Shown piece by piece: positions 29,601 through 32,567 of a stretch of DNA of 64,000 nucleotides. The stretch comes from Austropuccinia psidii (Eukaryota > Basidiomycota > Pucciniomycetes > Pucciniales > Sphaerophragmiaceae). The notes under the pieces were generated by a model that ran no database searches, was not told the DNA's origin, and saw nothing but the letters and a program-made list of their open reading frames with translations. Made by a program: the position numbers and the translations under genes. The stretch is taken from NCBI GenBank assembly GCA_023105745.1, contig JALGQZ010000004.1, forward strand, positions 69,491,112-69,555,111, read 5' to 3'. The number at the start of each line of letters is the position of its first letter. Position 1 is the first letter of the stretch.

Positions 29601-32363
29601 AAGATTAATATCAACTTCATGTCCTCTTATAGCGCCTAATGGTTCATTATCAGAGGCAAATGCATTTTTATATGTGTATAACACATTAATAAGCTCATTC
29701 CTCATCTTTGGTGACAATGATTGATTAATTTTTGCTTCAACAAGTTGATTAGTCACAAATTCATCTTTGTAAGTATCTTTGACAGAAGATACTACAGATA
29801 TCTGTTTTGGCATATTGGAGAAAGCAAATTTTTGTCTCTTGTTATCTCCAATTGTGAAATATCTGTCTTTATGGTTATTTATATCAATAGCATAAATATT
29901 TAAGTAATCATTTCCAAGAATGATGTGCTGAGATGTGCAATTATCCATTACTACAATCTCAGTTTTCATTCTTACACTTCCTGCTGGATGTGGGAATACA
30001 ATATTAGTGTCCAATATGCCCAAGGGGTACATATTGTTACTGGCACTACTGAATTGTACACCTTCTATTGGTAATAGATGGTTTTTCCATTCAGGAAGTA
30101 TAATTTGGAGATAATCTTTGCCAACACAAGTGCAGAATGCCCCTGTATCCAAATTTACTTTGGCTTCAATATCACGCATCAGAACTGATGTGATACAGGA
30201 TGCTCCAGCAGTATAACCCTTTCCTCTAGCAGGTTTTGTCTTACACATTCTGGCATCTTGGATATTGATCAGGTTGCAGCAATCTTCACTGTACTGTGGC
30301 AAGTGGGTATGGACTTCTGTGACCTCAAAGAAAGCTGAAATGTTTTCAATGGGATAATCCTCCACTGGTGTATCTTCAGAGACTGCAGAATCTTGATCAG
30401 ACTCCTCTTTCTCTTCAGTACACTGAATTTCTTCAATGACTTGAACTTCATTGATTTTTGTCTTTTTAGGACAAGTGTTGGCTAAATGTGAAGTACTTCC
30501 ACATTTATGACACTTCAAAACAGGTCTTTCTGGTCTTCTTTCCTCTCTAGGAATCTTTGAGACTATTTTGGACTCTATTGGGTTTTTAATCCAAGTCTTA
30601 CCAATTCTTGTCCTGGTAATGATATCTTCCATAGCATTAATGTAGTCCTCTGTTGAACAAGGTTCCACACATCTGCTTTTGATAGCATGTTCCAGTTCTC
30701 CTCCACACTTTCTTAATATTTTCATATTAGTCATAGTGTCAGACATATCTGGGTGTAAAGCAGATAATCTGTCTTTTTGTTTGAAGAACCAAGTAAGTGG
30801 TTTGTCTTTTTCTGAGTTAAAAATGGCACTTTCAAAAGCATTCTCCATTTTAAACCTCCAAGAATTATTGGCCCATTTGGTAATCACTTCAGATTTCCAC
30901 CAAGACCAGTCATGTTTACCATGATCAATCCTCATTTTGTAATACCATTTCTTTGCAGTTCTGGTAAACAAACAGTGTAATTTTCCCACTATGATTTCAT
31001 CAGGTATATTAAAGTCTTCTTGCAACATATCAATAGTTCTAATGAATTCAATATGGTTATATTCTCCTTCACCAGAGAATGTTGGCCATTCTTCTATTTT
31101 GGGAATATCTCTTGCAGAGTAGGCATTTTCTCCTAAGAATGGAGTCAAACTTTCTTTGACAGAAATTTTTTCTTCAGTCAAAGGTGTAGAATGTCTTGGC
31201 ATATGTGGTTCATGATTCTTATGAATTTGCTCCACACTTGCAATTATATCATTCTTCAATTTCTGCCTCTCACTGTCACTTTTTGCTAAATGTATAGCAA
31301 ATTGATTGGTGTTCTTAACTATTTGTAAGACATGGTCTTCAAGAGTTTTAAGTCTATCATTTACTTTAAAAATGGAAGGATCCTCTGTGTCATTATTTTG
31401 ACATTGGGTCTCAATTCTTTCACAAGCATTGCTAATTGACTCAAGGGTGACAGTTGTCAAGTGATGCCAATCAGAATGTTGCTTGTCATTTTTCTTTAAA
31501 TCATTGATGTCTAATGTAATTTGCTTCAACTTTGACTCAAGTTTGCCAATTTCTACACTAATACTTCTATGTACATCATTTACTTGCGTGGAAAAGTCCT
31601 GTTCATCCTTTCCTGCTCCTTGGCTGTGAATTCCATAAGAGTTCTGGCCATATTGAAGACACTGTCCACGGCTGAAGGCTCCAATTTGGGGATCCTGTAC
31701 CCTTGTGGGTAAGGTCTGTGCCAATTGGCTTTGCCTTTGCCCTTGCCCTGATGGTTCTTGGGACCTCTCTGTTTCTTTTGAGGTCCTTTGGGCTTGTCCT
31801 TGGGCGCTTCTGGAGCTGGTTTGGAGCTGGTAGATGCCACTGGTGCCTCTGTCTCCAAAGCTGGAGTCATTTCCAACTCTTTCTTCTGGTCTATGGATAA
31901 AAGACTTTGGTTCTTCAACCAATTCTTTATCTTTTTGACCTTGTCTTTGCAAGACACGGGGCTCCATCCTCCTAAGAGTTCTATGGTCTTCTCCTGACCC
32001 AGAAAGCTCTTGATGTGTAAGTAGGAGTTCATGGCCCCCTGCCAAAGGCTTGGGCAGATTTCCCACTCCTCTTCCTTGGCTGCTCTGAACCAGTTTTTGT
32101 ACTGGCATTGATATATTTCTATTGCTGCCACCTGAAAGTGGTTCAGCCCTGGAAATATTACCATAAATCAGTTCAGGCTCAGAATTTACGTCAAACTCTG
32201 TTGGTACAGACCTTGGGGAATGGGGGGCAACTCTGGCATCCTCCATATGTGCCTTTCTTGTGGAAGATTTGGCACTTCTGGATTTGGTCTTGCCTCTTCC
32301 TTGTCCACATCCATCTAGTTGGACTGAATAGTTGCTTCCATTTCTGGTATGCACCATTTTCAC
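26655..32363 (-). CDS. gag-pol polyprotein of the B element
   Basis: A single 1902-residue frame encodes all replication functions. Approximate residues are: Gln/Ser-rich N-terminus 1-260, overlapping the accessory ORF; coiled-coil matrix-like part 260-400; capsid-like region 420-560; CCHC knuckle CHKCGSTSHLANTC near 615; aspartic protease NLDTGAFCTC near 738; reverse transcriptase about 905-1135 with YIDD near 1086; RNase H 1225-1350 (YIDACGDG, ITDCNA, NADGLSR); integrase zinc domain 1466-1508; integrase core D, D, E near 1539 (MDWV), 1599 (SDRDPKF) and 1634 (LAERM); GPF/Y module; chromodomain 1840-1888. All catalytic residues are present. The chromodomain suggests targeting to marked chromatin. 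The start ATG lies inside the proposed accessory-ORF intron, so only unspliced RNA would encode this protein. Confidence 0.95.
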   Translation of the reverse strand: MKMVHTRNGSNYSVQLDGCGQGRGKTKSRSAKSSTRKAHMEDARVAPHSPRSVPTEFDVNSEPELIYGNISRAEPLSGGSNRNISMPVQKLVQSSQGRGVGNLPKPLAGGHELLLTHQELSGSGEDHRTLRRMEPRVLQRQGQKDKELVEEPKSFIHRPEERVGNDSSFGDRGTSGIYQLQTSSRSAQGQAQRTSKETERSQEPSGQGQRQSQLAQTLPTRVQDPQIGAFSRGQCLQYGQNSYGIHSQGAGKDEQDFSTQVNDVHRSISVEIGKLESKLKQITLDINDLKKNDKQHSDWHHLTTVTLESISNACERIETQCQNNDTEDPSIFKVNDRLKTLEDHVLQIVKNTNQFAIHLAKSDSERQKLKNDIIASVEQIHKNHEPHMPRHSTPLTEEKISVKESLTPFLGENAYSARDIPKIEEWPTFSGEGEYNHIEFIRTIDMLQEDFNIPDEIIVGKLHCLFTRTAKKWYYKMRIDHGKHDWSWWKSEVITKWANNSWRFKMENAFESAIFNSEKDKPLTWFFKQKDRLSALHPDMSDTMTNMKILRKCGGELEHAIKSRCVEPCSTEDYINAMEDIITRTRIGKTWIKNPIESKIVSKIPREERRPERPVLKCHKCGSTSHLANTCPKKTKINEVQVIEEIQCTEEKEESDQDSAVSEDTPVEDYPIENISAFFEVTEVHTHLPQYSEDCCNLINIQDARMCKTKPARGKGYTAGASCITSVLMRDIEAKVNLDTGAFCTCVGKDYLQIILPEWKNHLLPIEGVQFSSASNNMYPLGILDTNIVFPHPAGSVRMKTEIVVMDNCTSQHIILGNDYLNIYAIDINNHKDRYFTIGDNKRQKFAFSNMPKQISVVSSVKDTYKDEFVTNQLVEAKINQSLSPKMRNELINVLYTYKNAFASDNEPLGAIRGHEVDINLNIDRPYPPVLRRPDYPASPRAREALEKHIQELIQLGVLRKVGLNEEVEVTTPVIIAWHNDKSRMVGDFRALNTYTVPDRYPIPRIQETLTQLSKARYITSMDALKGFHQNFLTPKAKKLLRIITHCGIFEYLRIPFGIKNAPSHYQRMMNTIFPTELSEGWLIIYIDDIIICSDSWSLHLERLARVLHKVAEVNMKISLKKCNFGFEELKALGHVVSGLSLGIDKNKVAAVLLKPIPQNKKEMMSFLGFASYYRQHLKDFAILAKSLYRICDQQIVFEMTQERIKAYEKIKKALTEAPLLLMPDWNIPFKLYIDACGDGLGAALHQVQIIDDKPTEGPVCYISRQIKPTEARYGASQMECLCLVWALEKLHYYLDGSVFQVITDCNAIKSLLNMKTPNRHMLRWQIAIQEYRGNMTIVHKAGNIHKNADGLSRWALANTPDNPAYVPLEAEPQIPIEGINITDIGTEFFEEVRESYKQDKNCHILTSLLDKDCKDTSLVNALDEVWKNSYSEGRFHLFDGIIYHRTKHSCVMTLCSRLLINTILHECHDSIYSGHLSEDRTLEKVKNCAWWPSWRKETIEYCHTCDRCQKANRSTGKKFGLMIHIQEPKSPWEVVHMDWVTALPPSGDKSYNACLVIVDRYSKTPIFLPCHKDDTAMDTALLLWSRVISHTGLFKNIISDRDPKFTSALWTNLHRLFGTKLSFSTAYHPQTDGLAERMIQTLEDMIRRFCAYGLEFKDSDGFTHDWCTLIPALELAYKTSVHSSTGQTPAMLEKGWNPRLPADTLRKDLIDIHPTASSFKLMLDKVKHHAKQSMDDAFDYAKQKWDKSHKVPDFKVGDLVLVSTLNLNNIKGPKKLKDSYVGPFVIVALHGTNAVQVELSGELENKHPTFPVSLIKPYQPADKELFPLRNPTPLTVPPVEQNEDKKIKKVIKERRLRGKNQREYLVRYRNPVHEDEWMAESEIPDSDKLLRRFRHERRPQA

Positions 32364-32567
32364 GTCAATTTAAAGATAAAAGGTGAGAATATAAGATAAA
32401 ATACACACCTTTTGGTGGTAATTTAGCTTTTTCTGAGTTGAATAAGGTGCCTCTTTTAGCAATCTGCACCTCAATACTGTCTTCAGATTCTGCTTCTGAA
32501 GATTCTGGACTATTGATGTATCTTTTACTGAGTCTGTTACCAGCTGCACAGTATTTGATTAAAGACA
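31580..32567 (-). CDS. Spliced accessory ORF of B overlapping gag-pol
   Basis: Proposed exons are 32567-32409, 32323-32190 and 32131-31580. Exon 1 follows TTTAAG|TGTCTT. Introns 32408-32324 (donor GTGTGT, acceptor ATTCAG) and 32189-32132 (donor GTAAAT, acceptor TTTCAG) are GT-AG, 85 and 58 bases long, and keep the frame. The second junction moves reading into the +1 frame relative to gag-pol. The product is about 280 residues, against 281 predicted for family A. It shares SLWQGAMNSYLHIKSFLG, GGWSP, a basic KGKGK stretch, PYPQGYRIPK, VFNMARTLMEF and the final FPRK with the A and C proteins. The first intron removes the gag-pol start codon. The function is unknown. The initiating ATG is not seen in exon 1. 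Confidence 0.55.

Follow-up and report, generated by a model that had tools for sequence, protein, structure and literature searches.

Our analysis of a 64,000-nucleotide (nt) stretch of the rust fungus Austropuccinia psidii (assembly GCA_023105745.1, contig JALGQZ010000004.1, positions 69,491,112 to 69,555,111; hereafter the window) points to an overprinted gene in three families of gypsy retrotransposons, A, B and C. The gene would encode X, our name for a basic protein in the +1 frame over the N-terminus of gag. Sequence comparison suggests that X is made from a spliced RNA that lacks the gag AUG, and that splicing likely selects between Gag-Pol and X; we place the probability of this reading at about 0.87. 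A first-pass annotation of the window had proposed a conserved spliced protein overprinted on gag. This proposal is borne out by codon-position tests, by the ratio of nonsynonymous to synonymous rates (dN/dS, given below as w) and by integrated copies that lack the predicted introns.

Predicted exon plan of X and its carrier elements

By sequence comparison, families A, B and C share one predicted plan, in which exon 2 is followed by intron 1, exon 3a, intron 2 and exon 3b. In each family, exon 2 opens with TG immediately behind an AG acceptor (TGTCTGAC, TGTCTTTA and TGTTTGAA in A, B and C) and holds no in-frame ATG. The first-pass annotation had placed the starts at 224 (copy A1), 19915 (copy A2), 32567 (B) and 40499 (C); each of these positions directly follows such an acceptor, and the sequence there begins with TG. 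Intron 1 has the donors GTAAGT (A), GTGTGT (B) and GTGAGT (C), and at its 3' end the gag start codon is followed by the acceptor within 14 bases (ATGCCTTCAACCAG, ATGGTGCATACCAG and ATGACTACCAG). Because intron 1 contains the gag start codon, splicing is predicted to choose between proteins. Intron 2 lies at an equal protein position in A, B and C (KEK^ELTPPQQASVDIY, PPIPQ^GLNHFQVAAIEIY and PSPK^GTNHIPRAQIGIY; ^ marks a splice junction) and is 72, 63 and 66 nt long, each a multiple of three, so that gag reads through it in frame. Both introns are in phase 1. Family C uses a GC donor for intron 2, which is also found in its relative L089.

X would be 286 amino acids (aa) long in B, where it is a continuous open reading frame (ORF) in the copies L062 and L065, and 258 aa in A after in silico removal of introns 0 to 2. 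The earlier exon model was right in taking X as spliced, but it needed a further intron, a split start codon (A^TG) and other lengths: those predicted before, 281 aa (A) and 280 aa (B), imply fewer introns than we found. The motifs, frames and end coordinates that it listed for the +1 frame in A, B and C are present in the sequence. The features of X and of its B carrier are as follows (L066 is an intron-less A-type copy).

32950-32959, minus strand: end of the B 5' long terminal repeat (LTR) and presumed primer-binding region (CATTTGGGGG), a motif at the leader start common to A, B and C
32568-32731, minus: candidate B intron 0 (donor TTCTTTGA^GTTACT, acceptor TTTAAG^TG); the block conserved between B and C ends at the donor
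32409-32567, minus: exon 2 of X in B (159 nt), lying upstream of gag; its first bases are TG, which would make A^TG the start codon; joined to exon 3a in intron-less copies
32344-32408, minus: B intron 1 (GTGTGT...ACCAG), including the gag AUG; absent from processed copies
32355-32357, minus: B gag start codon (MVHTRNG...), from the sequence
32212-32343, minus: B exon 3a of X, 132 nt, over gag, with an in-frame stop in the window copy; from sequence comparison
32149-32211, minus: B intron 2 (GTCTGT...TTTCCAG), 63 nt or 21 gag codons; absent from processed copies
31580-32148, minus: B exon 3b of X including the stop; from the codon-position bias of shared variants
26655-32357, minus: B gag-pol open frame from the gag AUG (Pfam RVT_1, RT_RNaseH, Integrase_H2C2, rve, Tf2-1 SH3)
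19916-19992, minus: A2 intron 0 (TATTATAA^GTGAGG...TTTTAG^TG), 77 nt; missing to the base in L066
19717-19915, minus: A2 exon 2 of X, of frame-breaking length here; from the sequence
19654-19716, minus: A2 intron 1 (GTAAGT...TCAACCAG), including the gag AUG at 19667-19665; junction in L066
19564-19653, minus: A2 exon 3a of X, from the sequence
19492-19563, minus: A2 intron 2 (GTCAGT...TCAAAAAG), 72 nt, with the X frame open through it too; 27 of 30 A copies have the same ends, and L066 lacks it
19004-19491, minus: A2 exon 3b of X including the stop, from the sequence
147-1026, plus: A1 whole X region (intron 0 147-223, exon 2 224-421, intron 1 422-484 with the gag AUG at 471-473, exon 3a 485-574, intron 2 575-646, exon 3b 647-1026 with an internal in-frame deletion)
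39606-40499, minus: X region of a decayed C copy (exon 2 40499-40350, intron 1 40349-40263 with donor GTGAGT and gag ATG at 40273-40271, exon 3a 40262-40131, intron 2 40130-40065 with GC-AG ends, exon 3b 40064-39606); relatives L089, L091 and L092
8829-8995, plus: fragment of the X C-terminus (C2), from the sequence

None of the window copies is intact: exon 3a of B contains an in-frame stop, exon 2 of A2 has a frame-breaking length, A1 carries the in-frame deletion, and C has stops and a frame change. For the A2 gag frame over the overlap, we counted three stops and not the two reported earlier. In B, the +1 frame is open from stop to stop at 32167-31580, inside the gag-pol ORF.

The splice sites recur in further copies. 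In sets of 30 A and 30 B copies, picked by X similarity, the gag ATG is followed by six bases and ACCAG in 30/30 copies of each family. Among the 30 A copies, donor 0 reads GTGAGG in 25, acceptor 0 AG in 26 and donor 1 GT in 27, and acceptor 1 is kept in 30; in a diverse 10-copy sample of B, acceptor 1 AG and donor 2 GT are each found in 10/10. Of the 120 A gene models listed for A. psidii MF-1, 15 connect exons 2 and 3 across intron 1.

Family B is a young gypsy element. Its gag-pol is one ORF of 1904 aa (32369-26655, minus), and its two LTRs, 99.3% identical over 949 bases compared, together with the order reverse transcriptase, RNase H, integrase in pol (RVT_1 113-268, RT_RNaseH 358-464, H2C2 592-646, rve 663-762; positions in the scanned stretch) place it in Ty3/gypsy. 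A possible zinc knuckle in gag gave a weak zf-CCHC match (E 0.018, 15.5 bits, under the curated cut-off of 20.8). Searches of the assembly (1.015 Gb) with X of B and X of A returned at least 150 matches each, 150 being the number scored of 40,632 and 40,149 first-look candidates. Among proteins, the best 120 of 889 matches to X of B (927 candidates) and the best 120 of 564 matches to X of A (958 candidates) are all MF-1 gene models, and that gene set names X-like entries hypothetical fungal proteins. Passages of PMC8063080 describe the A. psidii genome as more than 90% transposable element, with gypsy predominant.

Families B and C share a conserved leader block of some 85 nt (window 32724-32810 and 40786-40871, minus), whose end reads TTCTTTGA^GTKACTCT; it could be an exon 1 or a packaging signal. 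In the B-type copy L068 (C7:57487800-57489000), the exon-2 acceptor AG reads AA, which places an ATG in the DNA itself, and the leader-pattern matches L072, L074 and L078 likewise read AATG there. The leaders of L063 and L064 carry about 100 nt extra, starting with the LTR-end sequence CATTTGGGGGCC, ahead of a second such sequence, which is altered in L064.

Integrated copies without introns

When the spliced gene model was used as a protein query, five B-type places (L061-L065) matched across intron 2 without a break. A genome-wide pattern for the B exon junction at intron 1, with up to 2 mismatches, gave 7 matches against 0 for the reversed control; all 7 were read, and they comprise L062, L063 and L065 plus the new copies L084, L085, L086 and L087. 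Intron 1 is exactly absent in these seven, and L064 lacks it with one base less. Intron 2 is absent in L061, L062, L063, L064, L065, L085, L086 and L087 and retained in L084, so that L061 lacks intron 2 only and L084 intron 1 only. Exons 2, 3a and 3b form one open frame in L062, L063 and L065 (286, 289 and 286 residues); the X frame breaks further on in L085, L086 and L087. Trees with a few unspliced relatives distribute the processed B copies over at least three groups, L062 with L065, L063 with L064, and L084 with L085 and L086, with L061 apart (L087, having no anchor, was not in the tree).

The corresponding A pattern had a single genome-wide match, with 0 mismatches and a control of 0. This copy, L066, lacks introns 0, 1 and 2, and ATG TCT GAC sits at its TATTATAA^TGTCTGAC junction; its X frame is later broken by a stop. 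The ATG at the exon junction of this one copy indicates that the A start codon would be assembled from two exons. For B and C we infer an A^TG start codon by analogy with A, since coding exon 2 starts with TG and holds no in-frame ATG. Taken together, the missing introns are what reverse transcription of spliced RNA would leave, and the sequences support such an origin.

Two donor candidates for intron 0 were examined by the same kind of pattern. The B donor TTCTTTGA^GTTACT is kept as a candidate only, because the block that it ends is conserved between B and C. A donor in the LTR (A^GTAC in A, B and C) gave 7 matches, all with 3 mismatches, and 3 for the control; three were read, and the candidate is unconvincing.

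In family C, part of X appears joined to gag. At least 39 C matches continue as the window's C copy does (hand count among the 150 scored, the window's own included, reaching residue 57). Ten of these copies were fetched: one is rearranged, two (L093, L098) had no anchor, and seven, aligned with L089, share the same 23-nt gap relative to it. The gap brings the N-terminal part of X in frame with the gag body in 7/7 alignable copies. L089, which has a stop in exon 3a, retains the stretch APV.S.S that is also found in A and B, so the gap is most simply a loss. In 6/7 copies the joined frame runs on for 275 to 418 codons before a stop or the end of the stretch is reached, and the gag-AUG frame ends early; the remaining copy, L097, carries the gap plus a further frame change. 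On this comparison, the C sublineage has spread with its gag body in frame with the predicted start of X. Translation of the joined frame from the spliced start would fit these data; alternatives are an internal start or help in trans.

The rearranged copy, L090 (C2:68377900-68381100), is C-type, and its pol C-terminus runs into X. Its long open frame over the X piece was set aside, since pol is joined to X there. A second match of equal open-frame length at C2:68395008 suggests that L090 was duplicated.

Constraint on X and on gag

The first frame, X, is maintained by purifying selection in exons 2 and 3b. Between families, X of A and X of B match at E 4e-36, compared with 4e-9 for gag over the overlap. 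Exon 3b as X is 36-42% identical over 154-190 residues, and the same DNA as gag 29-34% over 73-178; the three family pairs give E 3e-37, 2e-32 and 5e-47 for X against 1e-9, 6e-14 and 9e-19 for gag. X is thus ahead of gag in every pair, in agreement with the earlier statement that gag is the less conserved frame. The A, B and C copies compared also have in common the stop-ending C-terminus PY..(G/S)YRIPK......VF.M.RT.ME...KE.

Within B, changes in exon 3b between L002 and L065 fall on gag codon positions 1/2/3 as 27/2/7, that is, on X positions 3/1/2; pairwise changes in downstream gag are most frequent at the third position, as is usual (25/26/48). The exception among seven pairs to the third-position excess in X is L002-L064 (12 changes, 4/6/2). 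When the effect on both frames was counted for 61 changes between L002 and four of the five processed copies (L061 left out), w was 0.19 for X, given gag-changing, and 0.95 for gag, given X-changing.

Because these copies had been found via X, a separate set of 14 copies was found by leader sequence. Ten were usable, without L076 (no anchor) and L080-L082 (less than 0.7 identity to L002). Variants common to at least three of these copies fall on X codon positions 8/12/46 in exon 3b, with w of 0.10-0.15 for X and 0.80-1.11 for gag on the same DNA; exon 2 has w 0.26. X stops among them number 0 against 3.5 expected. Downstream gag gives positions 40/38/78, w 0.47 and 2 stops against 7.1 expected. 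For variants common to at least two copies, w is 0.23 for X and 1.35 for gag, and X stops number 1 against 5.8 expected. Variant density is 0.44 in intron 1 and 0.12-0.14 in the exons.

Exon 2 lies outside the search queries, and its counts used 27/31 A and 32/36 B copies. Polymorphic sites by codon position are 18/4/29 in A (w about 0.29) and, by X codon position, 2/10/15 in B (w about 0.35). In B the X frame is stop-free in 30/32 copies and the other two frames in 0/32. The comparison of dN/dS in both frames suggested by the first-pass annotation accordingly found excess conservation of the +1 frame, not the lack of it that the annotation had set as the contrary result.

The gag frame is stop-free over the overlap in 29/30 B and 25/30 A copies, and the third frame in 0/60. 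When X codons were resampled in one copy each, the gag frame was open by chance with a probability of 0.00035 (B) and 0.0001 (A). The openness of gag over the overlap therefore looks selected, at least in young copies, while its residues look nearly free and set by X. An accessory frame ordinarily rides on gag; here the relation looks reversed, with X constraining the gag residues.

Predicted role of X and competing explanations

X has an isoelectric point (pI) of 9.0-9.7 in the four proteins calculated. The N-terminal half is acidic or near-neutral (pI 5.0-8.8), and the C-terminal half (pI about 10) is strongly basic, with a Lys/Gly stretch, the GYRIPK motif and a C-terminal helix. Structural models suggest helices, a disordered basic linker and a confident C-terminal helix. 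X gave nothing above the Pfam cut-offs, and a 73-sequence profile matched no sequence in PDB at E up to 1; homology to Rev, Rex, Tax or Tas was not found by PDB or Pfam sequence search. A database label of some X-like proteins, "No apical meristem-associated", has no Pfam support in the six that were scanned. Since X is basic, would be the product of a spliced RNA and is kept beside Gag, it most likely acts on the element's RNA or on Gag; our best guess, by analogy with retroviral accessory proteins, is a trans-acting regulator.

Under the reading that we prefer, unspliced RNA would serve as Gag-Pol message and as genome. Removal of intron 0 would create the AUG of X (in B and C by analogy only), removal of intron 1 would delete the gag AUG, and removal of intron 2 would take out in-frame stops in B and C, after which X would act in trans, with the RNA of the element or Gag as its target. 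A further step is possible, although we would not count on it: X might feed back on the choice between spliced and unspliced RNA, making a built-in splice switch that is Rev/Rex-like but outside retroviruses, with the Gag body of the C sublineage wired to the start of X.

Several observations weigh against our reading. The case for splicing comes from integrated DNA copies, and for intron 0 from one A copy. No B copy without intron 0 was found: its junction pattern gave 15 matches at 2-3 mismatches (control 0; 14 fetched), and these read as variants of the acceptor region, not as junctions. The intron-0 acceptor is retained in seven processed B copies (L061-L065, L085 and L086). In the 10-copy sample of B, donor 1 is GT in only 7/10 and acceptor 2 AG is in place in 8/10. 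The main A and B copy sets were selected on X similarity. When all variants including singletons are counted, w for X rises to 0.68 (exon 3b) and 0.84 (exon 2), with gag at 1.20 in the overlap and 0.79 downstream; such weak constraint is expected if most copies are dead. Exon 3a alone (n 26 and 19) gives X no clear excess constraint, and stops in exon 2 of B are not depleted (2 seen, 1.8 expected). Shared gag stops in the overlap are likewise not depleted (5 against 5.6 for at least two copies, 2 against 3.4 for at least three), and a need for gag to stay open is therefore argued from open-frame counts and resampling. The gag of B and C still aligns over the whole overlap (31% over 252 aa, E 1e-25); gag is therefore less conserved, not unconserved. 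Finally, the AlphaFold models of X are poor, with a predicted local distance difference test (pLDDT) of 63 and 62 and a predicted template modelling score (pTM) of 0.28 and 0.34.

The non-depletion of shared gag stops in the 10-copy sample would also suit an arrangement in which Gag truly begins with X and is entered from the X frame through frameshifting or additional splicing, with the gag AUG a bystander. The constraint on X rather than gag on the same DNA, the C sublineage with its joined frame, and some gene models that join X to gag would fit as well. We nevertheless regard this as improbable, because the copies of A, B and C that were compared all have an X stop preceded by a shared C-terminus, and gag keeps its AUG and an open frame in 25/30 A and 29/30 B copies of the sets described above, at a chance of 1e-4 to 4e-4 given X. 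By eye, no usual slippery heptamer was seen near the X stop of B; no systematic test for a frameshift site was made. It is still harder to accept that the conservation of the X frame reflects an RNA signal, such as a packaging signal or splicing enhancer, instead of a protein. Retroelement leaders and gag starts often hold packaging signals, and the leader block is conserved between B and C; however, variation tracks the third codon position of X over 566 nt, shared X stops are avoided, and similarity as protein persists between families at 36-42% identity. Least credible of all is that the introns are missing through chance deletions or assembly errors and that the +1 frame is open by accident. 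Open frames can arise in this way, and given the gag protein X would be open with a probability of 0.02 (B) and 0.06 (A), but the gaps end at GT/AG in two families, for three introns and in several combinations, the reversed-pattern controls gave 0, and exon 2 is coding yet lies outside gag.

As for function, the main rival to a helper role is that X restricts the element's own transposition as a dosage control, like Ty1 p22/p18. In its favour, the genome holds very many copies, and X would be small, overlap gag and come from a subgenomic RNA. X lies in the other frame and so is not a truncated Gag, and that it is conserved in lineages that amplify suits a helper no less well; we consider a restrictor unlikely, if a more serious contender than the readings weighed in the preceding paragraph.

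In complex retroviruses, a multiply spliced RNA yields a small product (Tax/Rex of human T-lymphotropic virus, Rev of human immunodeficiency virus), unspliced RNA serves as Gag-Pol message and genome, and reading frames overlap. X would resemble these proteins in its predicted origin from spliced RNA, the role of unspliced RNA and the overlapping frames. It differs in that it overlaps the gag N-terminus, belongs to a fungal gypsy element and has an intron that holds the gag AUG. To our knowledge, fungal gypsy-type elements are usually drawn as gag-pol only. Ty1 p22/p18 is an N-terminally truncated Gag in the gag frame, unlike X, which is in the +1 frame and predicted to be spliced. The transcript of p22/p18 is initiated within GAG (PMC8458377); X would share with it the origin as a subgenomic product of the gag region in a fungal LTR element. 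Drosophila gypsy, as described in passages of PMC4276936, uses a spliced subgenomic RNA for Env, an mRNA without gag and pro-pol; X would likewise be an extra protein from spliced RNA of a gypsy-type element, but one overprinted on gag. In BARE1, splicing yields Gag alone and knocks out Pol (PMC3735527); the predicted splicing of X would also change which protein is made, but would do so by replacing Gag with another protein. Ogre elements have extra ORFs, which the passages of PMC6431247 do not describe as overlapping gag, as X does.

Spliced subgenomic RNAs, extra ORFs and subgenomic gag products are thus known, and what appears new is a predicted spliced gene overprinted on gag in these families. 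Among titles and the starts of abstracts, with the subscription literature mostly outside this scope, no description of an overprinted or spliced accessory protein of LTR retrotransposons was found, in rusts or generally. The word "gag" is absent from the passages of the rust transposon papers considered, including those of PMC8063080. In three families whose main X exon is 36-42% identical as protein, X is more strongly constrained than the gag residues that it overlies. These data suggest that spliced accessory genes can occur in LTR elements other than retroviruses, where annotation based on ORFs overlooks them or assigns them to the host. The intron-less copies make transposon splicing readable from the genome, and the question of why these families grew so large becomes testable.

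Other features of the window lie apart from X. Two ORFs at 49911-51852 (minus) carry a helicase-like motif (DDMGLGKTIQAIALIG) and are perhaps a broken gene of the SNF2 type. An 836-aa ORF at 43608-46118 (minus) could, on first impression, be part of a DNA transposon. At 53560-54139 and 59862-60488 there are direct repeats with short spacing, of 207 nt (94%) and 300 nt (95%), respectively.

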